IMG/VR virus record: IMGVR_UViG_3300050015_000289 | Span: 1-59,231 of that record | Length of the DNA stretch: 59,231 bases | Strand: one strand, 5' to 3' | From: a virus | Shown: positions 3,952 to 24,310 of the stretch, piece by piece | Layout: the number at the start of each line of letters is the position of its first letter | Position numbering within the stretch: position 1 is the first letter of the stretch | The notes under the pieces: generated by a model | Seen by the model: the letters and a program-made list of their open reading frames with translations, nothing else | The model's database searches: none | Told to the model about the DNA's origin: nothing | Position numbers and translations under genes: made by a program

Positions 3952-3953
3952 TT

Positions 3954-4286
3954 ATGACAGAAAAAGCATTAAGATATAATGAAGGAAAATTAGATTGGAC
4001 ATTGTTAGACTTTGATTCAATCAAGCCTTTAGTTGAGGTAATGACCTATGGTGCAACTAAATATGCACGAGAAAACTGGAAACTTCCTTGTGATAATCCC
4101 AGAGAACATCTAAAATCCGCTATGAGACATTTGTTGTCTTTATTTAATGGTGATGAATTCGATTTTGATCCTAACTGTGAAGAATGTAAAACAGGTAAAT
4201 GTGGTTCTCATAGCGGTAAGCGTCATTCTGGACATATAATGGCAAATATGATGATGTATAATTTTCATACTAAAAACATAAAATAA
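3954..4286 (+). CDS. dATP/dGTP diphosphohydrolase-like (DUF5664) protein
   Basis: This 110-aa protein matches the phage DUF5664 / dATP-dGTP diphosphohydrolase N-terminal family. Visible features are the start KALRYNEGKLDW, the segment MTYGATKYARENW, the helix HLKSAMRHLLSL, and a C-terminal SGKRHSGHIMANMMMY helix. The Glu and His residues on these helices are typical metal ligands of all-alpha NTP pyrophosphatases. It would remove pyrophosphate from purine dNTPs, either shaping the nucleotide pool or protecting a modified-base pathway. I placed the start at 3954: an in-frame ATG at 3885 exists but would overlap the 59-aa gene by 67 bases, and family similarity begins at 3954. It overlaps the DUF1937 gene by one base (TAATG). 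Confidence 0.75.
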   Translation: MTEKALRYNEGKLDWTLLDFDSIKPLVEVMTYGATKYARENWKLPCDNPREHLKSAMRHLLSLFNGDEFDFDPNCEECKTGKCGSHSGKRHSGHIMANMMMYNFHTKNIK

Positions 4287-4645
4287 TGACATATTTAGCA
4301 ATACCATATTCGTGGAACCCAGATAAGGCTTTTGAAATAGCAAATGTTAAAGCTGCAGAATTAATGCTTCCTAATAGAGATTCCATCTTTTCTCCTATTA
4401 GTCATTCTCATCCAATTGCCAGGCATATGCCCGAAAGCTATAGATTAGATCAGGAGTTTTGGATGGATCAAGATTTACCGATGCTTAGGTTATGCAAGAA
4501 AGTGGTTGTAATTGTGCCATGTATGGATGGAGATACAAGTAAGGGGCTTGAACTTGTGGCCAATTCTAAAGGGTGTAACAGAGAAGTTCAGGAAGCAAAT
4601 AAATGCAATATAATGGTTGAATACCATAAAGTTAATATACATTAA
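4286..4645 (+). CDS. DUF1937 / nucleoside deoxyribosyltransferase-like protein
   Basis: This 119-aa protein opens with TYLAIPYSWNPDKAFEIAN and continues with FSPISHSHPIA, the signature of DUF1937. That family resembles nucleoside 2-deoxyribosyltransferases: a Rossmann-like fold with an early Tyr, Asp (WMDQD) and a GLELVANSKGCNREVQEA segment typical of the active-site helix. A role in nucleotide salvage or remodelling is likely, especially directly behind the dNTP diphosphohydrolase-like gene, with which it shares a base. The actual reaction cannot be established from sequence. The usual length of this family is about 110-130 residues, so the protein looks complete. Confidence 0.65.
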   Translation: MTYLAIPYSWNPDKAFEIANVKAAELMLPNRDSIFSPISHSHPIARHMPESYRLDQEFWMDQDLPMLRLCKKVVVIVPCMDGDTSKGLELVANSKGCNREVQEANKCNIMVEYHKVNIH

Positions 4646-7291: not shown

Positions 7292-7322
7292 AAAAAGGGG
7301 GAAAGTTAATCCCCCCTTTTTT
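7292..7322. terminator. Bidirectional intrinsic terminator between converging arms
   Basis: AAAAAGGGGG at 7292-7301 pairs with the CCCCC/TTTTT run ending at 7322 around a loop of about nine bases. A G/C stem flanked by A and T tracts works as a rho-independent terminator in both directions. It lies between the last plus-strand gene (stop 7245) and the end of the 1350-aa minus-strand gene, whose stop codon (7321-7323) overlaps the T tract. Confidence 0.85.
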
Positions 7323-10300
7323 AATGATTGACATTAGCCAATATCCTATCGGTATTATAGTTCCATTTATTATAGGCATTGAGAACTGGAAATTGTCTAG
7401 TGAAATTTTCCATTAACTTACTTTCGTCGTAATAGGCATTATCTCCCTTGACATATTGTTGAAAGGCATACATCAGTTTCCCAAAGTCGGTAAAGACACT
7501 AGCCGCTGGAATAGGATTCGTGATAAACTGATTAAAGGTTCCTGGAGAGAAGTAGAAAGACATATCACCCATAAGTTTATATGTAGAGTTCATGGCAAGA
7601 TAGATCTTCGTTTTGTCCTCATTATCATTGACCACAGCAGCAGAAAGTCCCATATATGCGGCAGTTAATCCAAGCATATAATGCATCTCTTTCATGGTTT
7701 TACGGATATTACCGACTAACATCTGTTTATCGACATCCCGCATCTTGATATTTTTAAATGCTCCTTCACCCTGAAATGCTAATAATTTAACCAATGCACC
7801 GGTACTTTTGGCAAACCCATTATCCTTAAACATATTAAAGACGGTTCTATATCTACCCTCTACGTTTCTTCCAAGAGGTTCACTGTATCTGCGTTCTCCA
7901 AAACGATCATCAATACCTTCTACGGCCCAAGAAGCTTTATACATGGATAGCATTCTACCTAGAATATGCCTTTTGGCCTCTGGCATTGTCTCCCTGTCCA
8001 TATTCCCATGTAACTTAGCATTTATCTCTGCTACCTTAATAGCAAATTTAAAATGCTCTTTATTGGCCTCAGGATCATCATAGTGACCATTCCACTCCTT
8101 AGAGTCTGCAAATTCTGCAGTGTTCCAGGTGCCATCAGCATTTCTGGCATCCCATAGACTACGTTCATTGCCTTTTAGATCTTTTATTTTTGTGGATTTT
8201 AGCATAGCATTCATAGTACCGGTACGATTTAAATATTCACTAGTATTCATAAGACCCATAGGACCTAAAATGCTCAAATCGTAACTCTCGGCCTTATATA
8301 TTGCCTCCATTGTTTCTCTATGAACGCCAAGTATCTGTGCCCAGTTCCATGTCTTATTGTTCTCTAAAGAATCTGCGCGTATTGATCTGAAGGCATCCTT
8401 ATGTGCTTGCATTATCGCCCACCTAGCATCTGATGGATTATAGTCTTGTCTTGCAGATCCATGATTTAAAATACTTATAACTCCATATGCCTCGTTTCCA
8501 AATGCTGGGAAGAATTGAAACATGAATGTTTTCTTATATCCTAATCTCATTGTTTGATCTAGCATCTTAGATATAGTAAAATTACGGCCCAAAGTAGCCT
8601 GTGCTTCTTTGTATATATTCATTCTCTTCTCGTACTCTACCTCTCCAATAGTTTTATTATCGCGAAGATCCTCCAAGTCTGACATTCTCTCATCTATATC
8701 CCTAGATGCTGTTTTCTCATTTACAGTTACAACATGATCTTTGTATTTCTCAGACATCTTTTTAGTTGCTTCTTCAACACCGATAGATTTCACCAGATTA
8801 TTATACTCTGATATAATTGGTATATCATTAACTTCTCCCAAGACCTTAAAACTTTGTTTTTTATTATCAAATGATTTGGCGCCTGTAACAAATTCAGTGT
8901 TAAATCTATCTCCATAAATATTATTATCTATAATATGCTGAAGCATTTTCTTGGCATGCGGTAACCCTCCTATAGAACCATCAGGTTTTTTCATCTCACG
9001 AAGAAAGGAGTTCATAAGTGTTACAAGTGGCTCAACAGTAGATATATGCTTATAGGCAATAGAAGTCTCTGCAAATTTATATGCCATTTCTTTTAGGTTC
9101 CTACTTCTATCCATAATATCTAATCCACCTATATGCTGAACGGGAATATTCCTCTTTACATTACCATATTGATCCAGTTTCTGATAGTATCCCTGTTCAT
9201 GTGTGCTGGTAGTGAGAGAGTCCATAAACTCTTTCTTAGCACCTGCAAGTATGCCTCTGCCGTTTTTTCTCATTAAGATATTAAATTCGGTATCTTTCAC
9301 AGATGCTAGGAAGGTAGGAGACAAACCACGTTTTGCATATGAAGGTAGATAAGATAACAATCTCTGCATTAAGTTAAAGTGGTCATTATAAAACTGAAAA
9401 GCTTTTGGATTACTTAAAATCTTGTCTTTAAAATCTTGGTTATAATAATTGGTTGGAGATCCATCTGTAAATTTATCTTTAGGAACGTGTGTAGTATATC
9501 TCTCTATATCACTCCATTCTGGGAGTCTAAGATCTTTGCCTACGTCTTTTTGTGATATGTATTTTGATAATTCCACTGGGGAATTATTTCTCTCCCAGTT
9601 GTCTATTCTACTTTTTAATTCTTTCTCACTTTTAATATCTCCATCAGCAAACTGATCTTTATAGAATTGCTTCTTTCTTTCGAAATCCCTCTTATATTGA
9701 TCATATTTCATCTGAGCATCAATGATTCTATCTTTTGCATATTCTCGATCTCCAGAGGCAGATGCCAATTTATCTTCGATACGCTTTCTTCCAGATTCAG
9801 TTAATAGTTCTTCTGGGTTAATGGTTATCATCCTAGAACGTACATAGTCGTTACGCTTATTTAAGGCCAGTTTCTGATCTCTTAGTTTATTTTCTGGTTT
9901 CTTGATTCGCATAGCATTGTCCATCTCCGTCTCAAAATCAACCTTTGATTTCTCCCAATCGTCGTAAAACTCTGGAGTATTTCTGCCTATAGCCTTTCCC
10001 GTCCATTCTCCATCTTTGTCGTAAGCCATAAACATCTCAGGTTTCAATTTATTCTTAGCAAGTTCATCGAACATATTCTTAATCATCCTACGAACTTCTA
10101 TAGTCTCTCCTTGAGTTTTTAAATTTGCCCTTTTAATGACCCCATCAGCAACACTAAGAATTTTTATTGGAGTATCAGAACCTTTCTGCAATGCCATCTT
10201 AAGATAGGATATATCTTGAGCTCTTCTGAAATCCTTACCGTCTAATATAATGGATAACTTTTCATTGGACTCCTTCGTCATCAGGTCTATAGCCTTAGCT

Positions 10301-11373
10301 TCAAGTTTGTTAAACATCTCATCAGTAGCTCCAGTACTTATTTCCTTCAATCCTCGGATTACATCTGGATGTATGATATCGCCTTGTTCCATAACCATCT
10401 CTGGAGCATTTTTCCACATTTTCATTGCTTGATAAGCTATGTTAATGTCATCCCAGGAAGGGTCTTTGGCATTAGCTATTTTCATCGCAAAATCTTTATG
10501 GAAATCGAATAATTTTCTAAGACCAGGAATTGTCAGATTATTGGGATTGCTTCCCATATCCAATATCTGAGTCTTAAATTCTTTCATAGAGGCAGTCTGA
10601 GATCTCATCTTATCCTCTATGGCATCACGTCTTTTTATTCTCGACAAAATATCTTCGCTGGAATCAGAAACTCCTTTCTTCTTTAGATCGCCAATCTCCC
10701 TGTTAAGAATTGATTTGTTTGTGTTTAACCTTGTTAGTGACTTTTGTATATCTTCAATCTTAGCCGTTGCCTGTGATAACACTTGCATAATTCCGCTATC
10801 CTGACCAAAGTTTGTTCCTCTGATCTTATATCTGGTATGCAACTGTTCTGGATCCATAAAACTGGATAATGCATCCTCCTCTACATCTGTGAATACGTGA
10901 TAATCATTTAATGTAGGATCATCAAAATTTTCCTTTTTTGTATCAAATTCTCTTGGATTTATATCTTCAGCATTAAGAAAGTACATAGCATCCCTAGTTG
11001 GATCTTCGTCACCGATAGATTCCAATGATGGAGCATTTAATCTATTATCTTCTGGCTTTAATGAATCTCCATAATCAATATTCATCTTAACCTCATATTT
11101 TGCACTATCAGAAAGCTTCTTGCTTCCATATGGAATATCTTCACCACCTTTTCTTATAAGTAGAGAATGATTAGTGCCATTGATAGCATTATATGACCCA
11201 AGAGATTTATGTAACTCCGAGATATCCTTTACCTTAATAGGTTCCTTCGGCTCAAACTGTTTTATCAACTGAGCATGTTCCACCAGAAACCTCTGAGTAC
11301 CCTTTTCTGCCCCTAATTTATCAATATAATCTCGAAGTTTCTCGTCTTGTACGTTTTCTATTCTACACGCCAT
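7321..11373 (-). CDS. Giant virion cargo protein, 1350 aa
   Basis: This very large, mostly helical protein lies downstream of the virion RNA polymerase gene and is the last gene of the late arm. Residues ~190-290 and ~550-640 are Lys/Glu-rich coiled-coil-like segments. Two hydrophobic patches occur in the second half (FMFQFFPAFGNEAYG and, near the C-terminus, LGLTAAYMGLSAAVV), which could contact a membrane during DNA injection. No enzyme motif is visible. In crAss-like phages, two to four such giant proteins are packaged in the head and tail and ejected with the DNA, and this gene has that size and position. It shares the promoter at 26033-26064 with the two genes upstream and ends at the 7292-7322 terminator. 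Confidence 0.7.
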   Translation of the reverse strand: MACRIENVQDEKLRDYIDKLGAEKGTQRFLVEHAQLIKQFEPKEPIKVKDISELHKSLGSYNAINGTNHSLLIRKGGEDIPYGSKKLSDSAKYEVKMNIDYGDSLKPEDNRLNAPSLESIGDEDPTRDAMYFLNAEDINPREFDTKKENFDDPTLNDYHVFTDVEEDALSSFMDPEQLHTRYKIRGTNFGQDSGIMQVLSQATAKIEDIQKSLTRLNTNKSILNREIGDLKKKGVSDSSEDILSRIKRRDAIEDKMRSQTASMKEFKTQILDMGSNPNNLTIPGLRKLFDFHKDFAMKIANAKDPSWDDINIAYQAMKMWKNAPEMVMEQGDIIHPDVIRGLKEISTGATDEMFNKLEAKAIDLMTKESNEKLSIILDGKDFRRAQDISYLKMALQKGSDTPIKILSVADGVIKRANLKTQGETIEVRRMIKNMFDELAKNKLKPEMFMAYDKDGEWTGKAIGRNTPEFYDDWEKSKVDFETEMDNAMRIKKPENKLRDQKLALNKRNDYVRSRMITINPEELLTESGRKRIEDKLASASGDREYAKDRIIDAQMKYDQYKRDFERKKQFYKDQFADGDIKSEKELKSRIDNWERNNSPVELSKYISQKDVGKDLRLPEWSDIERYTTHVPKDKFTDGSPTNYYNQDFKDKILSNPKAFQFYNDHFNLMQRLLSYLPSYAKRGLSPTFLASVKDTEFNILMRKNGRGILAGAKKEFMDSLTTSTHEQGYYQKLDQYGNVKRNIPVQHIGGLDIMDRSRNLKEMAYKFAETSIAYKHISTVEPLVTLMNSFLREMKKPDGSIGGLPHAKKMLQHIIDNNIYGDRFNTEFVTGAKSFDNKKQSFKVLGEVNDIPIISEYNNLVKSIGVEEATKKMSEKYKDHVVTVNEKTASRDIDERMSDLEDLRDNKTIGEVEYEKRMNIYKEAQATLGRNFTISKMLDQTMRLGYKKTFMFQFFPAFGNEAYGVISILNHGSARQDYNPSDARWAIMQAHKDAFRSIRADSLENNKTWNWAQILGVHRETMEAIYKAESYDLSILGPMGLMNTSEYLNRTGTMNAMLKSTKIKDLKGNERSLWDARNADGTWNTAEFADSKEWNGHYDDPEANKEHFKFAIKVAEINAKLHGNMDRETMPEAKRHILGRMLSMYKASWAVEGIDDRFGERRYSEPLGRNVEGRYRTVFNMFKDNGFAKSTGALVKLLAFQGEGAFKNIKMRDVDKQMLVGNIRKTMKEMHYMLGLTAAYMGLSAAVVNDNEDKTKIYLAMNSTYKLMGDMSFYFSPGTFNQFITNPIPAASVFTDFGKLMYAFQQYVKGDNAYYDESKLMENFTRQFPVLNAYNKWNYNTDRILANVNH

Positions 11374-11392: not shown

Positions 11393-14300
11393 TTAACACT
11401 TCGTTTTGAATAGTCCTTTTGCTATTGCATCACGAAATGCAAAGGTAGCATCTTTTTCGGTTCCCCGCAATAGATCAGTAACAGTACCTGGAAGATCAAT
11501 GGAAGTCTTACTATTAGCAAGTATATCTGCAGTTCTTATTGCCCTTGGAAGATCTGAGGTTATGATATTTGAGATGTTGGAAATATTCTTACCCATATCT
11601 CGTGCCTGCTTTAATCCCGAAGGTGTCAATGGCGTATCATCAGATCTGAAATTACCATTTACATTATCTTCTGTCTCTCCGTGTCTGGCAATACGTATCT
11701 CCCCATTATCACCTTTTATAACAAAGGAATCACTGGGGTGACTATCTTGCTTCACATATTCTTCCCTGAATTCTTTAGACAGTTCATCGGGCCTATGCAT
11801 TTCGTCCCAAAGATGTATTAGCCCAAATACGGTGTTATGTGTTACTATAACTGTGCTATCTGGAGCAGTTTTTATTGTTCTTCCTATACCTTCTAACACC
11901 CTATTACTGAAGTCGTTAAATGATTCTCCGCCGTGAATATTTTCCTCTGGGTGGTTAATTATAATATTATCCACCTCTTTAACTTTAGACTTGGATTGTT
12001 CGGTACCAGCAAGATCATTAAGATTCAGAGTTTTAAAACTATTGTCAACCTCTATATGCGGACGATTAGATTCTATGTTTGGAGAGAATAAATTGTTTCT
12101 ATCTTCTCCATTCACTATATCTCTTAATGCATCTGCGTGAGAATAATATTCCCCCTTATCTTTCATGTATAATAATTTCTGGTTGTCCAGTTTACCCTGA
12201 GATATCTGTGATTGAATCCATGATAATTGATCGTCCTGGTCCCGTAATTTGTCATACTCTTTCACCGATAATCTATTTTCTCCGCCCTCAAATCCAAAGA
12301 AACCCGATCCGTGATGTAACCAATCTTTATACGCTTGAACTGCATCAGGAATATTTTCCATCTGTATGAGAGATGTTAATTGCGGATTTGCTGTAAATGG
12401 ATTTCCAAAATGTTCATCAGTTCCCTGTTTTCTCATAACATTAACTCCAGCTTCGGAATAAACTGGCATATCTTTTATTTGGCCCCAAGATAATGATTTA
12501 TCTACCACGGCAGGTCCAAATGGCATATTTTTAAGACGTTCAGACTCTTCATTATTAGAATTCACAACTGGCTTTCCCTTCATCTTGTCCACCAATATCA
12601 TCGAATTAATGAATCGCGCCTCCAGAACGTTCTTAGGGATCAATTCCTGGCTGTTTTTATCTCCAGCGAATAGATTATGCATCTTTGAGAAAAAGCCTGC
12701 AAAATGATCTAAAAAGGCCCTTAAAATGGATTTGTTGTTTTCTGTGCTTAATTTACCCGCAGTTTCTGGGGATATATTAACGGTTTCCATCAATGACTGC
12801 AATTTTGGCCTAGAATTAAGATCTGCCATAAATTCCTCTGGATTAGAGAAGCTATAGAGACTTAATTTCAGGTCATTCCTTTTATCCATATCTTTGGGAT
12901 ATATCTCTCTGGCCACCGCTTCTGCCCCCTTATTTTTGACACTATCAAACAATTTCTGGTCATAGATAATGGTTTTCGAAGGATCATTGTCTAAAGTAAA
13001 AGTTCCACCATCAGTAACACTTACCACTGGACGATCTTTCAATCCTTCCTTAGCGTCAGCAAATATAGAATTTACATTATCATAGACTTCCTTGAATTTA
13101 GGATCACCATTTTTACCAGCTTTGTATGCCTCGTGTTCAATGGAATGTGAAATTTCATGAGCCAGCGTTTCATGAGCGTGATCGAGACCATATTTATTAA
13201 TAAGATCTGACATCTCTTTCTTATAGATTATGATCTTGTTTTTCTTGAAGTCATATTCTGCAGAAGAAGAGCCATCGGGAGAAGCATCTTTATAGGTTAT
13301 CCCCGTCTTAGATGTAGATTCTGGCAACTGATCTACTATATTCCCCAGCCAGTTGAGAATTGGGCTCTTAGATTCTCTTAGGAAATTATTGATCCCTGAT
13401 ACGGTACTGTTATCTGGGATGGTTTTCATCATCCGATCAGAAGCCTTAGGTGTAGCAGGTATCTCTGGAACGATAGGATCTACGGAGCCAATAGTAGGCT
13501 TGATATCCTCCATGTATGGTTTAGAATAGTCGGAAAACATTGGCTTCCCAATGGTGCTAACAGATTCTGCACCTCTTAATGGTATCTGATTGTAGCGTAT
13601 TGAACCATCATCAAATCTTTCATTATCTAATTTGAAAAGTGTGGTAATACCGTTTTTAACCATCCTGACATAATCCTTATATTTTATATCGTCTCCATCG
13701 GCAGTTTTAGTTACCAACTTAGATACTATATCATCGCCAGCATAATATTTAGATTTTGGATCTACGATTATCTTTGCATATATCTCCTTGGTTTCCTTAT
13801 CTTTACTTAATCTGGATTCAAGACCCTTTATAAATGTTGCCTCATCAGGGTTATTCTGGAAATATTTTTCTCTAAACTCTGGATGGTCATAAGTTATTCT
13901 TGCCTCATTCATGACATTTTTAATCTGCCTATTGATACCCAATGCTTCAATAATATTGGAATCAATATATTTAAGGGCACTAGTCCTTCCCTGTATGCCT
14001 CCAGTCATATATTCATAGCGAATCCTGTTCTCAGCGTAATCCCTATATCTTGGGTTTTCGCTAGTAGCTAATTCCAGAAATCCACGTATAATACTTGCAG
14101 AAGAACTGCCATCTTGAACCCTTGAATCCATCTGTAGATATTTAAGGCTAGTATCGGTCTGATCTGTCTGGATGAAAAGGTTATTACGCAGATTAGGATC
14201 TTTCTTTAGATCAATAAGCTCATTAGCTAGTGAGTGATTTTCCACCAGATTTTTATATGGATTTTCCCCCAAGAATGGTAACTTGGAGTAAATGAATGAC

Positions 14301-17300
14301 TTATATCCATTGGAAATATTCTTTCTTCCTTTGGCAATAGCCTTATTCATGTCGCCATTGGTGAGACCCTTAGTGGATTCTATGGATGCAATAGCATCAT
14401 TTAAGAAACTACTGTCGTAACCCATAAGTTTACCAAGTGCATTGTGTTTCTCTATGGCAATCCTTATGTTATTTCCAGATGCTGTCATCTTATCGATAGG
14501 ATCTATCTTTGTCCAATATTGATTCTTGTCGTTCTTATATACCCTCATACTTCCATCACGAGACCATAGTTTACCAGCATTTTGTAGCTGAGGAGAGTTA
14601 ACAGCCTTAGCCACTCTACTTAATAGATTTTGATTCTCGTAGTAGTTGATACCGAGACCCTTAGGATCTATATTTGTGGCGTCTGTAGCATTGGAATATA
14701 ACCATGCCTTATCGTTGAGATCTGCGAATGTCTTAACTAGATCTATCTGTTTTCCAAGATATTCTTTTGACCCTCTATCTGCAAATGGAGTCTGTTCTAA
14801 TTCTAAAAGATCAGATGGTGAGTATGACTCTCGTGCTATGGAATCTACGTATTTATTTAGTTCATCCATATCACCATGGAAGTGAGTCTTTAGCTTATCA
14901 ATAGTTGCCTGCATGGCCTCACGTACATCACTATTGGCAGATTCATCGAAAGTTGCCAAGGTGTCTTTTGATTTTGTGATTAATTCGGACAACATCTTAA
15001 TGCCAGGCTGTCTTAAAAACCTAGTATTAGTATCTAATGCTACTCCGTTGCCATGTCCATCTGAAAGAGATGATAACATTGCGGACACATTGAAAGTATT
15101 TGAATTTAAATTATTAGGTGCAGCGACTGGCTTGTTGGCATTATCAACCATCCCTGACAACTGAATACTAAGATTTTCTATACCAGTTCTATTGTTTTTT
15201 TCACCATTAGGATCTACATATACACTTTTTGCAAGTGGATTAATTTTATACAGATCTAATTGATTCCCTTCACTATCTTTAAATTTAGATATGGTATCTG
15301 GAAGATATTTATCGCTATCATTGTCATATTTTACCATCTTAATATCCTTTCCCTCCATATTGGCGAGAGCTGGTAATGCCTTCGCAAATATTGCCCTACC
15401 AGAACGAGAGGCCGCCTGATCCATATAATCCTGTGCCTGACGAATATAATCGCCATATTCTCTCTTAGGTCTCTTGGATGTAACCTCATTGGCTAAGTCG
15501 GTAAGATCTGGTCTCTCAAGAGGGGTTAATGATTTCTCTATAACTTCTGGGTCAGAAAGTACGCTATCAAACATCTCAAAATAAGAATCTTGCAATGCCT
15601 TCTTGGTGAGAGTTTTCATACTAGGGAATTGAGTATCTTCCTTCGTAATTCCAAGATCCTCTAGTGCAAACTGAGTATTTTCAGAATCAGATATCTCTGT
15701 GTCAAGGAAATCCTCTGCTTCACTCCTTTTTACTGTAGCCTCTTCACCGACTTTTTCTGGTGCAATCTTTTGTGCTACTGCCTTACTTAGATCTTCTAAC
15801 CTCTGATATTCATCAAGTTTATCTTGTAGCGCCTTTTTATTTTCTATTTTATCTCCAAATACACCATATCTCCATTCAGCAAGGGCAATCTTCTTAACAT
15901 CGAGATTGTTATCCTTATCAAATCCTATTATATTAGAAGGTATACTGGTAAGTTTCCCATCTTTCGTAAGGAAAGAATTTCTCCAGTACATATATAACTT
16001 GTCAATATCGAAGTCAGATCCCATCTGGGTAGTGATCTCTGGAGGAACAATACAAGAGTCTCCATACCAAGCAGGTAGAAATCCTACAATCTTCGCCATG
16101 GTCATAGAGGAATGCAACTGGTTTGGGATTCTAAATCCAGCAATTCTCAATAATTCCTCAGGTACCTTATTTATATTTAATAGCTTAGTGTCTGGATCAT
16201 AAAATTCCTTTGCACTAAGAATATTCCCCATCTGATCCCAGAACTTAAACGGAACCATAATCTGCATTATCTTTCCACCCTTAGACTCTGACATTTGCAA
16301 TCCCTTATCAGGATCATATTCTTTAGTTTTAATTATGCCATTAATGTCATTTATCCTATCTCCAGTAAGACCTTCTACTCCTTTACCAAGACTCGGCAAT
16401 TGTACTCCAGAACCCCCTGGTTGATCCTGTTTAATAGCTCTATCTGAATACTTAGTATATATGGCAGTCTCCAACTTGGGAGCCATAGATGACATCATAA
16501 GTGGAACATCTCCTTTTATGGCATTCTTAAGACCTAAAACTGCATTTGGAGACCATTTTCTAATAGAGGCATTCTTTTCAATGTCATCTAATATCTTGTT
16601 CTTATCAAATTTCTCACCACCAATAACATCTGGATAATCATTGGAAAATCCCATGTCCTTATCTACGCCTTCCTCTTCAAAATTGGAAAGCTGAGTTCTT
16701 ATGGAGTTTTTCCTATCATCCAATATAGCACCAGAAACTTGTTCACCTTTATAGTTAAATGTCTTATCGGTAAATCCAGAGAAAAGAGTCTTATCAGCCT
16801 GAGTAACTAAAGGGCTTTTCTGTTTTTCTGCGTCATATGGTTGATCTTGCTGATATCCAAATCCAGCCCAATCCATCTCAGATCCATTATTTTTGAATAG
16901 TTTTCCCAGCTCCGTCTTAGGGAGTATGTTCCCACTCTTATCGTATATGCTAATAAGATTTTCTGCTCCATATTTTGCGGCGCTAAGATGTATAACCCTA
17001 TCAATATTATTATCTTCCATAGACTGTCTCATCGCATCAAGCTGACCGTTTAAGGTGCTAGTCATCTGTTTAAGAAGAGGCATCTCTGCAGATTTTACGT
17101 AGATATTTTTACTGAACAGCTTTCCATTAACATTGACAAATTTCTGAGGAACCTGTACTGGTTTCCCTGCTCCCAGGATTAGTGTTTTAATGTCATCGCT
17201 AGATAATGGTCCTTTGTTGTATTTAGATTTAAGATCTAAATATTGTTTTTCATCTATTGCTCCATCTCTGAGTAAAGCATCAAGTTTATGTGGAAAGGAA

Positions 17301-20300
17301 ATAAACTCAAGAGCATCAGATCCCTTACTAGTTACCTGATCTGCCGTTAAATGTAGGGATTTGCTAATTGATTCCAAGTACTTCTTCCCATCAGTATTCA
17401 TATCACTGGTAAATATAACCCTATATTTAGACGGCAATTTAGTACCATCGCTAAGAGTTACGTCGGTGACGGCACTCCTAGAAGGAGCTATATCAGATGC
17501 TAAACGTTTCTGATATTCAGCCATTGCCTTGTCGATGCCCAGTTCTATGTGTAGGTTATTCTCAGTGCCATATTTATCCTTAGCACCGCCAATGAACGTT
17601 TTAACAGATTTATTCATAATGGCGGGATCTCCAGAGATGAGCATCATGGAGTTATGAATCCCTATCTGAGAATTTAGATTCATATCTAATGCCAGATGAA
17701 GCAGTGCCTTATCTTTATCCTTATAAGTCATAAATGGCTGTCTGGTCTCTGGGTCTATCTCATATTTACCTAACCCATTAAGCTTGGCATATTCAGAATT
17801 CACAGGCATCTTAGTAATCTTACCCTTGGAGTCCCTGAATATTAAGTCATTATCTCCCCAAAATTGTATGTCATCCTTGGCTTTACCTATAAACCAATCC
17901 GCTATCTTACCCTTTAAGAATTTTTCATTCCTGGGATCTGAAAGAGTTAAAAAGTCAGATGTTTTAACCTTGGTCTTCCTACCGTCTACGTCCACTTCGA
18001 TCATATGATCTGGTACCATATTGTGATCATTATCGAATTTGAACATACGATTCAGAAATTTGTATCCATAGAAGAACTGACCGTTATTGTCATAATGTGT
18101 GGAAAATTCATTTCTAAGTTGATTTCTCTCTTCCGTTGTCAAGAGCATAGTAGAAAGTATCCTTTCTGTCTCACCCCTAACTATACCAAAAGCATCATCT
18201 AATATATCACTCTTAATAAGATTTTCTCTATTTACTATTGGCTTACCATCAACGCCAGATATAACAACGCCAGGCTCCAATCCATTCCTTGGTTGATTAA
18301 ATACGGTGGTAATTGGTTTATCTGACTTAGTGGTATCCCACGTAAACATATTATTCTTCCCGTTATTTTGGAAGTCTGTTATCTGGCTCAATAAGCTCTC
18401 AGACAGTGACATAGCTTTCCTAGTGGTAGATTTTGGTGATCCTAATTTAGTCATACCATCCTTATACCCAATCTTAAACATATCCTTAAATGGGGTATTA
18501 TTGCTAGTTCCTAAATTCTTATCCTTAAGCCAAGACGCGTGTTTTGTATAGATAGTACTCTCACCTCTCAGGGCATTAACAAACCCTTGATCTGACAATA
18601 ATCTTCCAGCCTTGATAGTTTGCGCTGTTGGTATTCCGAAATTATAGTGTGTATTGCCATCTACGCCTATACTACTGTTTGCAATATATTTCTTAGATGA
18701 CTTAGCTTCTATCTTAGATAAAAATGACAATGCCGATTGATTCAGTTTGTCAAAAACAGTATCTATGGTGTCATCTTTCTCTATATGTTTGAAGGCGTTC
18801 TCCATAGCAGAGAATATACCCAATGGTTTTGTTCCATCCATCCTAAACTGTGCAGCCAAAGACTTTCCGCCATTGAACGAATAACCCTGTCTTTTGTTGT
18901 AAGACTTGGGGTCATTGAGAAATGAATATGACTGATCGGCAAGTTTAATGCCAAGGGTATCAAGGGCATCTTTTATATATTCGCCCAACTTAGCGTTTAG
19001 CTTGTCAGGATTCATTTTTGCGTTTGCCTTTGCAAATTCTCTGGCACCCTGTAGTATGCTCCCAGCGTCTTCAAATAACTTACCCTGATATTCTTTATTC
19101 CTATATAAAGTATTGGCTATCTTAGACTTCCATTCGTTAAGCACCACCCTATCCGCTCTCTTAGTCTCTGAGTCAAAAGTTATTAGTTTTCCGAATCTAC
19201 TGTCCCATCCATTTGTTACAAACATATTACGATTTTTATTCATCGTAGATGCGAACTGAATCTGGGTCTGTAGATCAGCATTGGATATTTTATCGTGAAG
19301 TTGTCTAAATATATTGCCGCCAAAGCCACCACGTTCCATGGAAGAAGCTTCATCGTCTAAAGATTGAATGAGACCTTTTGCTGTTCTATCTGACGACTGA
19401 CTGGCTATATTTAATACCTGCTCATAAGCCTTTTCTGGGTCTACCATCTGGGCTAATCCTATTGCATCTCCACTAGGATCTCTAAGAGACCACATAAGCA
19501 TCTTAATGGTCTTACTCGACGTATCCATTGGATCAAGTGAAAATACAGCATTATTATTCCAATCTTCCCCCTCCATCTTGCCACTTTCCAATTCTATTCT
19601 ATCAGTAGAATCTGAATATTCATCCTCTGGAGCCTTGATAAATTGCTCTGAATTGTTGATGTCCCTTAGACCATTTTTGTCGATAGAGATTCCCATCTCT
19701 TGCATTCTATTGATGGTGTTCTTGGCAATCTTATTCCAAGCATCCTTATCCAGTATTCTATCTAAACTATCAATTCGTGATTCTGCAAGATCCCTAAATG
19801 ACTGAGATGCTGATTCGTTATTATAATCGTCAATTAATGTGTTGTAATAGCCAGATAATGAGTTATATGCATCCCGTAATGTTTGATTTACGTTAATAGA
19901 TCCATCATTTTTCATCATCTTGTCTGAGAAGTTGGTGAGAATAGAACCTGCCCCAGCATCCTCTTCTGATGTTGAAAGCATCTTATTGTCAGACGTTCTG
20001 ATTATATAATCGCTGTCAGAATTTCTAATTTTCTGAGCAGTTTCTATTGAAATAGAAGGAAGTTTGTCTCCTATATCCGAGCGTTGCAATTCTGCTCCAC
20101 CACCAGGCACCTCTCTTTTTGTAAATACTCTTTTTGCTGGTATAGCCGATTCGACCTTTGGGGCCTCAACCCTAGACGATATTTCTTTAGACTCTGCAAC
20201 ATTGGAGGCATATTTTGGAGGTTCAGTAGGTTTTACTTCCTCCACCTTAGGGGCAATAATTGCTTTTGAACCTTTAGATATGTCAGTGTCTATGGAAATG

Positions 20301-23300
20301 GTGGGCTGTATAAGATATATGTTTTTCCCGTCACTCTTCCCGGCTGGTATGATATTGGTCTGCAACGTGTTCATATATCTCTCGGTATATGAATTGGCAA
20401 GCTTCTCGAATCCCTTATCAGTTATACCTATAAAACTATTGGGCTTATTAAGCATATCAGACTGAAAATTGTGCCTTATATCTCCAATAAAATCTGTTAT
20501 CTTTTTAAGGCCTTCATAGGCTGCCTGTTTGACACTAATATTAGGTGATTGCATATCCATACCTATCTGGGTCAGGTCTACATCAGATGGAATGCCAGGA
20601 GCATTACCATATCTTAAAATAGTGTGCCTATCACTATCCTCATGTATGGTAACCGCAGGTCTCTGTGAAGAACCTGTATTATCAAATATACTGGTTGGCT
20701 CCATATATATAAAGTATTTAAGATAGTCTCTCAACCCTTCAGCTGAATCTATATTCTTAAGTTCATTGACCCTGGCAAATTCATTGTATTTCTTAGCCGC
20801 AACATCATTCACTCCAATATGAGCAAGTAATCCATTTTTAATGTGCTTATTGTCAGCACTTATCTCATTCACCTTCTTGGATTTTACTGGCATAGCATAA
20901 AACTTACCATTTTGAGAAGGTAATATTACAACTGGGGTCCCAGACGTTGTATCTCTTATCATGTCCAGATTAGAAATATCAGAGACCTCCTGATCTCCAA
21001 TGAACACTGAACCATTAATTACTACGCCAAAAGGCTTTTTCTCTTTAGTATCTTTTAATATATCTGGCAATGACTCACGCACCGACTGGAATCCTTTAGA
21101 ATTTGTAAGTGGATGGCCATCTGATATATCTCCAAGTTTTGTGTATAATGGATCACTATCTCCCTTTAAATATCTATCAGTTATGTCTTTTCTAACTTTG
21201 CCCATTTGAGAAACCATCTCATTGACAAAATCTACATCATTCTCTGCGATATTTTTTCTATGACCTATGCCTCCTTCGTTAAGCCAATTGTTTTCTCTTA
21301 AGAATCCTATATGATCCCCACGCTCACCGTTTTTATCAACGAGATATATGGCAATTGGTATCTCTCTCTCCTCCTTAGATGCTGAATCGGCATTGTGCAT
21401 GGAGAAAGTTTTTGCGCCACCTTCTTCTATTGCATTCCCATTTTTATCATAGTTGTACATGGCGATTCTTTCCTCGTCATGAGGGACAAGCATTACCTGA
21501 GCTCCGTTGAATACTTTTCTATTGTCAGATCCTACTAGGTATTTCTGGTTTATTTCTCCAGTACCGATCTTCTTGCCGTCTACAATGGTATACTTCTCGA
21601 CCAGATTGGCCACTGAATTAGGAGTTGTCAATAATGCTCCATTAGGTATTGCTTTCGCCTTTTCGATTATTGCATTATCATCAAAATCTTCCTTGGGTTC
21701 ATGAATAGTCTCCCTAATAGGGTCTATCTTTACCCTATTAGTGGCAGGTGCTATATCAGTGGATTTTATACTTCCCAGAAAATCAAATAGTTGAGATTTG
21801 GTAAAAGCCTCAGCGGTATTCATGTTATTAATGCCACTCTTATCTTTCATATAATCCGAAAGATCGTTATATGTGAAAGACTTATTACCAATCTTCATCT
21901 TAATATCGTTGGGATTTTCTTTTAGAGTACCAGATACCAAATCTCGTATCATCCCCATATGTGGAACGAGTCCATTAGATTCTTTCTTATCTATTGATGC
22001 AATCTGTGGTGGTGCAGTTATAGTGCCATCTTCTGAATGAGTTGTTATAGAAGGGGTAACTAGATAACCTCTATCGCCATCTTTCAATAAAGATATAGTC
22101 TTAGTATCTCCAGTTAATGTTTTTAAATCTTCTTCTGGTATATCTGAAACCTTGGATTCCAACTTATATTTATCAAACAGAGACCGCTGAATACCAGTTT
22201 CTGAATCCTTAATAGACACATTATGAATCAAATCTGCAGGTTCCTTAGGTTCTAGATCTTGGGTAAATGTTACATCGCCAATATTGGAACTTACAGTAGA
22301 AGCGCCGTTCTCATCTGGGATAGATTTTGGAGGTACGGGCAGAGTATTTTTAGACGCAGCTCTCTTCTTATCTTTCTCCTCATCTATTATCTTTTGGTCC
22401 TCTGCATCTTTTTGCGCCTGAATAGTTTTCTGGTATTCAGGTGATGTAACTGATAGAAAATTGTTGGCTAATTGTATCTCATTCAGTTTAGCTTTATCCA
22501 CCTCATCTTGTAGCGGTTTTGCCTGACTGTTAATCTTGCTTTCAGTATCTGCATCTACTATTGGATAACTCTTCCTTAGCTCAGCCTTAAAACTCTCAAG
22601 ATTGGTCTCTGACTTTGCGCGTTTCTCCACGGCATCATTGAGATCCATCTTGGAACTAAGTACTTCTGACGGGTTAAGATAGTCATTAGCCTTAGACTCG
22701 TCTCCAGCTTTTTTAACCTTATTTACCACGTCAAGAGCTAACTTTGCCCTATCTATACTATCCTGTACTATATTTATTGGTTTTCCGGATACTTCGCTTT
22801 CTTTTTTAGCATCTAACTTAGAGATATCTGTGAGCGTAGAAATTTCACCTTCTAATGTATTATCGTTGTAAGATATTTTTGCCAGATCTGTTATACTTTT
22901 ATTGTCAACATCTGCATGTTCCCCTTCCGAAGAAGCTGACTGCTTCCCTTGGAACATCTCATCCATAATCTTTGACTTCCCATATATACTATCTACTAAA
23001 TCTGGAGCCTTTGGATTAATCTTTTTTATGGCATTTTTCATATCTCCATATGTGGACATTGCCTTATCCTTAACAGAGCCCATCATACCCTTAACGGCCT
23101 GAAAAGCATGAGACTGAATAAGTCCCGTCTGTACACCGCCAGCAAGACCACCCCAGAACATTGATTCTAATCCCTGAGGATCAGTGAAATGACCGATGAT
23201 ACGCTCTGGATCTATGCTATAATTATCTCCATCTTGTGCCTGTCGCATAGCCTCCATATCAGAGGCATGATACATACCCATCTCTAATGCCTGCTGACCA

Positions 23301-24310
23301 GTTTCCCCAACGATTGCCCTGCCTATACCGCCATAATTTTTCATTATGGCTGCATTAGCCTTAGTGAACATACCAGAAGATGTAAAATTAACAAGCATAT
23401 TAAGCCTGTTAAGATTGATATTTAGCGCTGCAGCATCGGCAGCCTTCTGTTTAGCCGTTTCATCATCATCACCTTCTGCCAACTTCATGTCGTACACGTT
23501 CTTATATATTCCAGAGGCAGACTGTATCGAGAATGCCTGGTTCATTGCCAAGGTATTGACGGCAGTGGTCATCTTGCTCATTAACGGTATATGTTTTTCA
23601 ACCAGACCTTGAATAAATGCAGGAGCATCTTCTGATGCAAGTTTACCAGCTTCTACCAGCTTATTTGCCTTTGTGTTAAAGGCTTTCAGCACCCATGGAG
23701 CTATTTCTCCATCTCCTAATGTTTGTGCTAATTTACCCAATATCCCTCCAGTGATAAGGCCAGTAAGAGCAAAACTTCCAGCCATATTAACTAGATTAGA
23801 TGCATTTTCCATCCACCAACCAGAGTTTCCAATATCGAATGTCTTATCTGGATTTGTTCTATATATGGGAAACAACTTATTTGTTTCTTCCTGAAAATCT
23901 TGTGCCCATCTTGACACAGCATTTCCAACTTCATGGTCCACATTAAGATAATCCTCAACATCGCCAATAGCCGCTAAATTACCCAAAGTTCCAGCTAATA
24001 TATCTGGTATTGCTCTTGCGGCTATATTACCTATCTGCTGGGCAACTGGTTGATTTTGCGCCCTTACCTGATTGATATTGGTTCCAGCCGTTATCTGTTG
24101 AGGATTACTTATGTACGAACTATACATACCAGCCTCATCAACATTGGATTTATTTTCTGGTCCAAGATTCATGGTTCTCTTTGACGGATCTTCTGCAAAT
24201 GCAGGAACATATAGAGAATTGCTATCCTGCTGAGGAGTAGACAATATATTCCTATTCTCGTTTTGAGCCTGTTTGTTTTGCTTATATAAAATATCTAGTG
24301 GATCTGGCAT
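11393..24310 (-). CDS. Giant virion RNA polymerase fusion, 4305 aa
   Basis: Residues 2766-2770 are DFDID, the catalytic Mg2+ loop of the single-chain crAss-type (QDE-1/YonO-like) RNA polymerase. It is preceded by RIAGFRIPNQLHSSM and FLPAWYGDSCIVPPE, sequence typical of that double-psi-barrel core. The enzyme is packaged in the virion and, by analogy with phage phi14:2 gp66, should transcribe early genes after injection. The first ~420 residues are a separate cargo-like region with glycine-rich hydrophobic stretches (FALTGLITGGILGKLA), followed by charged coiled-coil sequence to ~650. Downstream of the core are three more modules: a zincin (HEISH, H3718-E3719, with NPEEFMAD further on), a DUF4326-like module (~3945-4065; HFGNPFT, then GEYYSHADAL), and a C-terminal histidine-phosphatase-like module (~4090-4300) whose motifs are permuted. 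The gene is uninterrupted, and at 4305 aa it is about twice the length of phi14:2 gp66. Confidence 0.85.
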   Translation of the reverse strand: MPDPLDILYKQNKQAQNENRNILSTPQQDSNSLYVPAFAEDPSKRTMNLGPENKSNVDEAGMYSSYISNPQQITAGTNINQVRAQNQPVAQQIGNIAARAIPDILAGTLGNLAAIGDVEDYLNVDHEVGNAVSRWAQDFQEETNKLFPIYRTNPDKTFDIGNSGWWMENASNLVNMAGSFALTGLITGGILGKLAQTLGDGEIAPWVLKAFNTKANKLVEAGKLASEDAPAFIQGLVEKHIPLMSKMTTAVNTLAMNQAFSIQSASGIYKNVYDMKLAEGDDDETAKQKAADAAALNINLNRLNMLVNFTSSGMFTKANAAIMKNYGGIGRAIVGETGQQALEMGMYHASDMEAMRQAQDGDNYSIDPERIIGHFTDPQGLESMFWGGLAGGVQTGLIQSHAFQAVKGMMGSVKDKAMSTYGDMKNAIKKINPKAPDLVDSIYGKSKIMDEMFQGKQSASSEGEHADVDNKSITDLAKISYNDNTLEGEISTLTDISKLDAKKESEVSGKPINIVQDSIDRAKLALDVVNKVKKAGDESKANDYLNPSEVLSSKMDLNDAVEKRAKSETNLESFKAELRKSYPIVDADTESKINSQAKPLQDEVDKAKLNEIQLANNFLSVTSPEYQKTIQAQKDAEDQKIIDEEKDKKRAASKNTLPVPPKSIPDENGASTVSSNIGDVTFTQDLEPKEPADLIHNVSIKDSETGIQRSLFDKYKLESKVSDIPEEDLKTLTGDTKTISLLKDGDRGYLVTPSITTHSEDGTITAPPQIASIDKKESNGLVPHMGMIRDLVSGTLKENPNDIKMKIGNKSFTYNDLSDYMKDKSGINNMNTAEAFTKSQLFDFLGSIKSTDIAPATNRVKIDPIRETIHEPKEDFDDNAIIEKAKAIPNGALLTTPNSVANLVEKYTIVDGKKIGTGEINQKYLVGSDNRKVFNGAQVMLVPHDEERIAMYNYDKNGNAIEEGGAKTFSMHNADSASKEEREIPIAIYLVDKNGERGDHIGFLRENNWLNEGGIGHRKNIAENDVDFVNEMVSQMGKVRKDITDRYLKGDSDPLYTKLGDISDGHPLTNSKGFQSVRESLPDILKDTKEKKPFGVVINGSVFIGDQEVSDISNLDMIRDTTSGTPVVILPSQNGKFYAMPVKSKKVNEISADNKHIKNGLLAHIGVNDVAAKKYNEFARVNELKNIDSAEGLRDYLKYFIYMEPTSIFDNTGSSQRPAVTIHEDSDRHTILRYGNAPGIPSDVDLTQIGMDMQSPNISVKQAAYEGLKKITDFIGDIRHNFQSDMLNKPNSFIGITDKGFEKLANSYTERYMNTLQTNIIPAGKSDGKNIYLIQPTISIDTDISKGSKAIIAPKVEEVKPTEPPKYASNVAESKEISSRVEAPKVESAIPAKRVFTKREVPGGGAELQRSDIGDKLPSISIETAQKIRNSDSDYIIRTSDNKMLSTSEEDAGAGSILTNFSDKMMKNDGSINVNQTLRDAYNSLSGYYNTLIDDYNNESASQSFRDLAESRIDSLDRILDKDAWNKIAKNTINRMQEMGISIDKNGLRDINNSEQFIKAPEDEYSDSTDRIELESGKMEGEDWNNNAVFSLDPMDTSSKTIKMLMWSLRDPSGDAIGLAQMVDPEKAYEQVLNIASQSSDRTAKGLIQSLDDEASSMERGGFGGNIFRQLHDKISNADLQTQIQFASTMNKNRNMFVTNGWDSRFGKLITFDSETKRADRVVLNEWKSKIANTLYRNKEYQGKLFEDAGSILQGAREFAKANAKMNPDKLNAKLGEYIKDALDTLGIKLADQSYSFLNDPKSYNKRQGYSFNGGKSLAAQFRMDGTKPLGIFSAMENAFKHIEKDDTIDTVFDKLNQSALSFLSKIEAKSSKKYIANSSIGVDGNTHYNFGIPTAQTIKAGRLLSDQGFVNALRGESTIYTKHASWLKDKNLGTSNNTPFKDMFKIGYKDGMTKLGSPKSTTRKAMSLSESLLSQITDFQNNGKNNMFTWDTTKSDKPITTVFNQPRNGLEPGVVISGVDGKPIVNRENLIKSDILDDAFGIVRGETERILSTMLLTTEERNQLRNEFSTHYDNNGQFFYGYKFLNRMFKFDNDHNMVPDHMIEVDVDGRKTKVKTSDFLTLSDPRNEKFLKGKIADWFIGKAKDDIQFWGDNDLIFRDSKGKITKMPVNSEYAKLNGLGKYEIDPETRQPFMTYKDKDKALLHLALDMNLNSQIGIHNSMMLISGDPAIMNKSVKTFIGGAKDKYGTENNLHIELGIDKAMAEYQKRLASDIAPSRSAVTDVTLSDGTKLPSKYRVIFTSDMNTDGKKYLESISKSLHLTADQVTSKGSDALEFISFPHKLDALLRDGAIDEKQYLDLKSKYNKGPLSSDDIKTLILGAGKPVQVPQKFVNVNGKLFSKNIYVKSAEMPLLKQMTSTLNGQLDAMRQSMEDNNIDRVIHLSAAKYGAENLISIYDKSGNILPKTELGKLFKNNGSEMDWAGFGYQQDQPYDAEKQKSPLVTQADKTLFSGFTDKTFNYKGEQVSGAILDDRKNSIRTQLSNFEEEGVDKDMGFSNDYPDVIGGEKFDKNKILDDIEKNASIRKWSPNAVLGLKNAIKGDVPLMMSSMAPKLETAIYTKYSDRAIKQDQPGGSGVQLPSLGKGVEGLTGDRINDINGIIKTKEYDPDKGLQMSESKGGKIMQIMVPFKFWDQMGNILSAKEFYDPDTKLLNINKVPEELLRIAGFRIPNQLHSSMTMAKIVGFLPAWYGDSCIVPPEITTQMGSDFDIDKLYMYWRNSFLTKDGKLTSIPSNIIGFDKDNNLDVKKIALAEWRYGVFGDKIENKKALQDKLDEYQRLEDLSKAVAQKIAPEKVGEEATVKRSEAEDFLDTEISDSENTQFALEDLGITKEDTQFPSMKTLTKKALQDSYFEMFDSVLSDPEVIEKSLTPLERPDLTDLANEVTSKRPKREYGDYIRQAQDYMDQAASRSGRAIFAKALPALANMEGKDIKMVKYDNDSDKYLPDTISKFKDSEGNQLDLYKINPLAKSVYVDPNGEKNNRTGIENLSIQLSGMVDNANKPVAAPNNLNSNTFNVSAMLSSLSDGHGNGVALDTNTRFLRQPGIKMLSELITKSKDTLATFDESANSDVREAMQATIDKLKTHFHGDMDELNKYVDSIARESYSPSDLLELEQTPFADRGSKEYLGKQIDLVKTFADLNDKAWLYSNATDATNIDPKGLGINYYENQNLLSRVAKAVNSPQLQNAGKLWSRDGSMRVYKNDKNQYWTKIDPIDKMTASGNNIRIAIEKHNALGKLMGYDSSFLNDAIASIESTKGLTNGDMNKAIAKGRKNISNGYKSFIYSKLPFLGENPYKNLVENHSLANELIDLKKDPNLRNNLFIQTDQTDTSLKYLQMDSRVQDGSSSASIIRGFLELATSENPRYRDYAENRIRYEYMTGGIQGRTSALKYIDSNIIEALGINRQIKNVMNEARITYDHPEFREKYFQNNPDEATFIKGLESRLSKDKETKEIYAKIIVDPKSKYYAGDDIVSKLVTKTADGDDIKYKDYVRMVKNGITTLFKLDNERFDDGSIRYNQIPLRGAESVSTIGKPMFSDYSKPYMEDIKPTIGSVDPIVPEIPATPKASDRMMKTIPDNSTVSGINNFLRESKSPILNWLGNIVDQLPESTSKTGITYKDASPDGSSSAEYDFKKNKIIIYKKEMSDLINKYGLDHAHETLAHEISHSIEHEAYKAGKNGDPKFKEVYDNVNSIFADAKEGLKDRPVVSVTDGGTFTLDNDPSKTIIYDQKLFDSVKNKGAEAVAREIYPKDMDKRNDLKLSLYSFSNPEEFMADLNSRPKLQSLMETVNISPETAGKLSTENNKSILRAFLDHFAGFFSKMHNLFAGDKNSQELIPKNVLEARFINSMILVDKMKGKPVVNSNNEESERLKNMPFGPAVVDKSLSWGQIKDMPVYSEAGVNVMRKQGTDEHFGNPFTANPQLTSLIQMENIPDAVQAYKDWLHHGSGFFGFEGGENRLSVKEYDKLRDQDDQLSWIQSQISQGKLDNQKLLYMKDKGEYYSHADALRDIVNGEDRNNLFSPNIESNRPHIEVDNSFKTLNLNDLAGTEQSKSKVKEVDNIIINHPEENIHGGESFNDFSNRVLEGIGRTIKTAPDSTVIVTHNTVFGLIHLWDEMHRPDELSKEFREEYVKQDSHPSDSFVIKGDNGEIRIARHGETEDNVNGNFRSDDTPLTPSGLKQARDMGKNISNISNIITSDLPRAIRTADILANSKTSIDLPGTVTDLLRGTEKDATFAFRDAIAKGLFKTKC

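Follow-up and report, generated by a model that had tools for sequence, protein, structure and literature searches.

Residues 4085-4271 of a 4305-aa open reading frame (ORF) from a metagenomic virus record form a branch-1 histidine phosphatase (HP) domain that is naturally circularly permuted. The window, i.e., the whole 59,231-nucleotide (59 kb) stretch of record IMGVR_UViG_3300050015_000289 that was analysed, also encodes a major head protein matching phrog_11589. A permuted phosphatase had been proposed in the initial annotation and was borne out by swapped profile matches, a rotated-sequence test, a confident structural model, at least 11 further records, and a canonical-order sister serving as the control. 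The same rotated domain was found at several sites in other crAss-like phages and is therefore a real, conserved, and apparently undescribed enzyme family. The features of the giant ORF and its neighbor were:

11393..24310, minus strand: crAss-like virion RNA polymerase (RNAP) giant, 4305 aa; the ORF is open and its RNAP core matches the crAss001 and phi14:2 RNAPs
16001..16015, minus strand: RNAP catalytic DFDID motif, residues 2766-2770, by homology to the crAss001 and phi14:2 RNAPs
13061..13207, minus strand: SprT-like zincin segment HETLAHEISH, E 0.018, below the cut-off
12284..12454, minus strand: weak DUF4326-like stretch, residues ~3953-4009, E 0.011, below the cut-off; upstream of the HP
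11498..12058, minus strand: circularly permuted HP domain, residues 4085-4271 (Pfam, relatives, model, and PhoE profile match)
11393..11488, minus strand: C-terminal tail ..FAFRDAIAKGLFKTKC plus stop, carrying junction Cys4305; common to crAss RNAP giants without an HP
7321..11373, minus strand: the ORF that follows in the RNAP chain (1350 aa), beginning MACRIENVQD, with a single Cys at residue 3

Around the DFDID motif, the giant was 32-52% identical to crAss001 gp50, phi14:2 gp66, and other crAss-like RNAPs. By sequence, the motif at residue 2766 and this homology identify the 4305-aa ORF as a crAss-like virion RNAP, in agreement with the host protein originally named. The giant shared with phi14:2 gp66 and crAss001 gp50 a DFDID core and a very large, Cys-poor chain, and differed in its accessory HP module: no RHG motif was seen in most of the crAss RNAPs examined. 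The phosphatase had been placed at 11676-12030 (residues ~4090-4300). Its location stood and its extent did not, as the domain is wider (11498-12058) and the last ~30 aa of the giant (11393-11488) are a tail containing no phosphatase, which the HP domain directly precedes.

The sequence of the slot preceding the RNAP C-terminal tail differed between crAss-like phages (L004, L013, L014, L018, and L024), and this position may therefore be a general module slot. By eye, a helicase motif VI-like sequence was seen there, namely YVALSRA in L013 and L014 and YVAFSRS in L004. A role in the processing of ADP-ribose phosphates has been proposed for DUF4326 (PMC9503650). A region homologous to the DUF4326-like stretch of the window was present in L008, whose RNAP frame showed no RHG motif. 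DUF4326 was dropped as a functional partner of the HP, given the weak match and a region that is not kept beside the HP in the nearest relative.

The permuted domain was divided as follows:

11717..12058, minus strand: first encoded half, equivalent to the canonical C-terminal half (beta3, GES helix, VTH strand, terminal strand)
11711..11716, minus strand: new covalent link from the old C-terminus to the old N-terminus (..FVI-KG-DNGEIRIARHG); predicted as a beta-hairpin (strands 120-125 and 128-134 of the model)
11498..11710, minus strand: second encoded half, equivalent to the canonical N-terminal half (RHGET, LTxxGxxQA, SDLxRAxxTA)

All of the motifs listed in the initial annotation were found, in the order it gave, within the open ORF: LNLND (4095), GGES (4127), VIVTH (4154, containing the second-pocket His, His4158), RHGETEDN (4209, containing the RHG His, His4210), LTPSG (4228), and SDLPRA (4252). 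The canonical order, RHG first and VTH last, was found neither in the window domain nor in its relatives. Pfam His_Phos_1 (PF00300) matched residues 4085-4271 in two swapped stretches at 79.7 bits (cut-off 21.7), far above chance. Each half also matched above the cut-off when searched alone, the first encoded half over profile positions 71-154 (E 1e-6) and the second over positions 3-68 (E 3e-14). When the halves were rejoined in silico in rotated order, they gave one collinear match to profile positions 3-153 at 84.0 bits.

A profile built from 11 permuted sequences matched PhoE (1ebb and 1h2e, from Bacillus stearothermophilus) in two swapped pieces: profile 133-195 aligned with chain residues 4-67, and profile 10-90 with residues 74-157. 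For 1ebb each piece was significant alone (1.5e-10 and 1e-6). Among the PDB chains shown, the RHG half matched the start of the HP domain, i.e., the canonical order. The swapped PhoE pieces therefore place the new termini in the loop that leads from RAxxTA to the following core strand (PhoE residues 67/74), where the break between RAxxTA and NxGxxEG had been predicted. A short predicted hairpin (FVIKGDNGEIRIARHG) bridges the old termini; the new ones were opened in the loop after SDLPRAIRTADIL.

The AlphaFold model of the domain was confident (pLDDT 89.7, pTM 0.84); its helices and strands followed the rotated order, and both halves were predicted to fold together. In a sequential fold search of the PDB (E<=1e-3) the permuted model had zero matches, with only local HP pieces aligning (2qni, 56 columns, rmsd 2.1; TIGAR, 77 columns, rmsd 2.2). 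The lack of a full fold match is expected because a permutant was compared by a sequential aligner. The canonical-order phage sister L062, put through the same search, had 299 matches at E<=1e-3, the top ones all HPs with TM ~0.7, even though its model was less confident (pLDDT 80.4) than that of the permutant. A giant-virus HP-family protein from Yasminevirus (BFVD A0A5K0UBI2) was the sole viral-structure match to the permuted model at E<1e-3 (TMq 0.33).

A viral-contig search with the RNAP core returned 51 loci, and the domain was made visible through these RNAP neighbors and a two-row alignment; only one of the 51 loci, L002, contained the HP (53% identity over 221 aa). A domain-based search added L053 (from the same record as L002), L054, L055, L056, L057, L058, L059, L060, L061, L112, L113, and L120, every one in permuted order. 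In total, at least 12 phage records (the window and at least 11 more) contained the permuted HP with the same order and spacing at varied insertion sites. Eleven permuted members were aligned, at ~31-51% identity to the window.

In the window, L053, and L059, the permuted HP was C-terminal to the RNAP, and in L058 it was N-terminal to it. In L054 it ended an upstream giant, where the region preceding it was homologous to window residues 983-1361, and in L057 it formed the N-terminus of another giant, whose far end resembled the 1350-aa ORF of the window. The HP sat mid-giant in L056, L060, L061, L112, and L113; these giants and that of L057 contained no DFDID motif. In L112 (8259-8795) an insert of ~175 aa fell exactly between the HP halves, where the ancestral termini were joined. 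Among the records of the relatives, 10 encoded a crAss-type TerL and nine a portal, while the crAss head protein family was found, of all records with a permuted HP, only in those of the window, L053, L054, L057, L058, and L059. The remaining records thus represent either a deep crAss-like lineage or a sister lineage. Among unsaturated comparisons, dN/dS was ~0.05 (L061-L113) and ~0.19 (window-L053, near saturation), indicating purifying selection.

Several loci required individual inspection. L105 (profile match 70-181) was rejected as a member, being a short chance frame. In L120 (8001-9800) an insert directly follows the RHGETVDN codons and splits the HP gene; it has a reading frame for a GIY-YIG-like endonuclease (..YKITNPKEAFYIGQTQ..). 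This locus was rejected as a decayed copy: the remaining domain was found ~1.3 kb downstream, and the HP is therefore interrupted and not lost. The insert is likely a homing intron within the active-site motif; a search of the insert region against Rfam found no intron family. In L055 (8001-8543, record G003), TGA is read as Trp, and 12 in-frame TGA codons were counted in the terminase encoded by that record. Reading TAG as Gln was rejected for this locus, as its in-frame stops were TGA and fell on a conserved Trp column.

Two further phage loci, L062 and L063 (IMGVR_UViG_3300015245_000187 and IMGVR_UViG_3300012944_000171), resembled the permutants in RHGETEDN, GxESFNDFKDR, THS, and a Thr at the general-acid position. 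They differed in having the canonical order and one collinear Pfam match, and both are short fragments. In a tree of the 11 rotated permutants and canonical HPs, the permutants and L062 formed one clade (100/100), apart from 45 cellular sequences; the placement of L062 within the clade was unsure (long branch). A single permutation, within a lineage of phage HPs, is the simplest reading.

The cellular set comprised 45 bacterial and archaeal loci found by the shared RHGETED signature. With one chance-like exception, their match to the permuted query was confined to its RHGET half, and none of the 45 had the permuted order. VTH was located 126-163 aa after RHG in the 33 cellular loci with a recognised VTH; in the permuted family it lay ~50 residues before RHG. 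No match was found in 793 genomes of two bacterial phyla by a profile search at 1e-18; the same profile recovered the window (2e-86) and also L112 (2e-35 for its better half), a member on which it had not been built. None of the catalogued phage and plasmid records tested covered both halves, and a single-sequence viral scan and a tblastn search of catalogued phages gave no matches. A first scan of cellular genome contigs was empty and a second gave canonical HPs only; the collection scans were seeded by short conserved peptides, from which members without RHGETED could escape. The active-site residues were:

11681..11686, minus strand: Arg4209-His4210 of RHG, predicted phosphate pocket and nucleophile; invariant in 11/11 permuted and 45/45 cellular sequences
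11837..11839, minus strand: His4158 of VTH, second pocket His; invariant in 11/11 aligned members, Asn in L120
11543..11545, minus strand: Arg4256 of SDLPRA, pocket Arg; invariant in 11/11
11924..11926, minus strand: Glu4129 of GGES; invariant in 11/11
12029..12031, minus strand: Thr4094 at the canonical general-acid Glu position (LRE, PhoE Glu83), by rotated alignment

The domain is predicted to fold as the usual HP core, in which Arg4209/His4210, Arg4256, and His4158 would converge into the phosphate pocket. In the PhoE alignment, the Thr4094 column corresponded to PhoE Glu83, presumably the general acid of that enzyme. This position was Thr in nine and Ala in two of the 11 permuted sequences, Thr in L062, and Glu in all 45 cellular sequences. 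Since Thr is also found in the canonical sister, loss of the Glu predates or accompanied the permutation, and it marks the phage subfamily as chemically different. The phage subfamily thus probably combines a rotated topology with altered chemistry. The replacement of Glu by Thr or Ala, on which the initial annotation had not remarked, probably means either a substrate with a good leaving group or a proton supplied by the substrate or by some other residue. Possible explanations for the loss include good-leaving-group or phosphoramidate substrates, substrate-assisted protonation, another donor, or lost catalysis.

Lost catalysis underlies the strongest alternative, in which the permuted fold binds a phosphorylated ligand or protein as a regulatory or decoy pocket. 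Loss of the general-acid Glu across the phage subfamily is consistent with binding alone, as is the 12th member, L120, where VTH is changed to ISN and Asn replaces the second His; catalysis may therefore not be needed in all members. The nucleophile His, both Arg residues, and the second His were nevertheless unchanged in every one of the 11 aligned members, whose identity to the window was ~31-51%, and purifying selection was strong, which makes binding without catalysis unlikely, though it deserves serious weight.

Published work has shown that virions of crAss-like phages contain the RNAP and deliver it along with the DNA (PMC7886860; PMC10172136), and that ejected cargo needs at least partial unfolding to traverse the tail (PMC10172136). 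By homology to these relatives, the window giant would also be present in virions and ejected. The cysteine content of the RNAP chain was surveyed in 53 distinct crAss-like records (loci L002-L052, L054, L057, L127, and L128). The chain consisted of one to three consecutive giant ORFs and was nearly Cys-free, with 20 Cys in 257,676 interior residues. Cys was present on both sides of 63 of 64 ORF junctions (last 12 residues upstream, first 15 downstream) and at the outer C-terminus of the chain in 1/43. At the window junction (11393-11395 and 7321-11373) the giant ends ..GLFKTKC and the next ORF starts MACRIENVQD. The pattern was also found in cultured phi14:2 (g067, g066, and g065), and crAss001 (gp47, gp50, and gp49) keeps the junction Cys, with gp47 ending ..ALRCNS despite lying on the opposite strand. 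As a hypothesis, these terminal residues suggest an end-to-end disulfide, or other Cys-based, linkage of the ejected cargo; an end-to-end disulfide chain would open in the reducing host cytoplasm.

The permuted HP would be an accessory module of giants belonging to the ejected RNAP chain and should therefore reach the cell as infection begins. Inside the host, it would most likely dephosphorylate a small molecule or signal, with phospho-His4210 as the intermediate; a host phospho-metabolite as the possible target had been suggested in the initial annotation. Taken as a whole, a permuted branch-1 HP that is injected as an accessory module and dephosphorylates a small phospho-compound or signal of the host via phospho-His4210 is, on balance, the probable reading.

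A less likely possibility than a binding pocket is that the HP assists the RNAP in cis, either by removing an inhibitory phosphate product or by acting on RNA ends or nucleotides beside the active enzyme. This role fits the window, L053, L058, and L059, where the HP is part of an RNAP giant, and phosphate clearing has been proposed for the InPase domains of polyvalent proteins (PMC5512222). Against it, the HP also occurred in giants with no DFDID motif (L056, L060, L061, L112, L113, and L057) and was absent from most crAss RNAPs examined. That the domain is two unrelated half-domains, remnants of separate HPs adjoining by chance, is very improbable: Pfam does report two separate stretches, but this arrangement, spacing included, was seen in 11 more phage records with differing insertion sites, and both halves fold together in one confident model. 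Misordering of the halves by an assembly artefact, conceivable for a metagenomic record, is refuted by the same order in independent records from different samples and by an open reading frame under purifying selection.

The domain shared with HP branch 1 (PhoE 1h2e/1ebb, CobC, and TIGAR) the RHG, SDLxRAxxTA, GES, and VTH motifs, the Arg/His/Arg/His pocket, and matches in both halves. Branch-1 HPs have the canonical order and a general-acid Glu, whereas the phage domain has the permuted order and Thr or Ala. In cellular HPs the TH is followed mostly by Gly, and in the permuted domain by Asn or Ser. Branch-1 HPs are also stand-alone enzymes, whereas the permuted HP is a module of giant phage proteins. 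As neither the canonical order nor the general acid was found, the domain should be kept apart from ordinary branch-1 HPs. A PHROG family of unknown function, phrog_12933, matched the window, L056, L058, and L060; the RHGET half of the window aligned to positions 4-72 of its 197-position profile as part of a two-stretch match, and this profile is therefore canonical.

The Pfam, PHROG, and PDB matches shown were all to canonical-order profiles or structures. Polyvalent proteins of phages and conjugative elements are likewise injected multidomain proteins, with phosphoesterase, InPase, and other effector domains (PMC5512222); the text of that paper never mentions phosphatase, phosphoglycerate mutase, crAss, or permuted. 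In an open literature collection, itself incomplete, no paper joined circular permutation with histidine phosphatase, and the few pairing circular permutation with phosphoglycerate mutase were unrelated, judging by their titles. Natural circular permutation thus appears to be undescribed for the histidine phosphatase superfamily.

The canonical sister, with the same altered active site, provides a before-and-after pair for the origin and benefit of the permutation. More tentatively, and with somewhat less than an even chance in our estimation, the phage permuted HP, which lacks the standard general acid, may target one specific phospho-compound or signal of the host (such as a nucleotide-type alarm signal or a phosphoramidate) during the opening minutes of infection, as a ready-to-insert effector that has moved between giants. 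CrAss-like phages are the most abundant gut viruses, and the permuted HP offers a direct handle on how they may act on the host besides early transcription.
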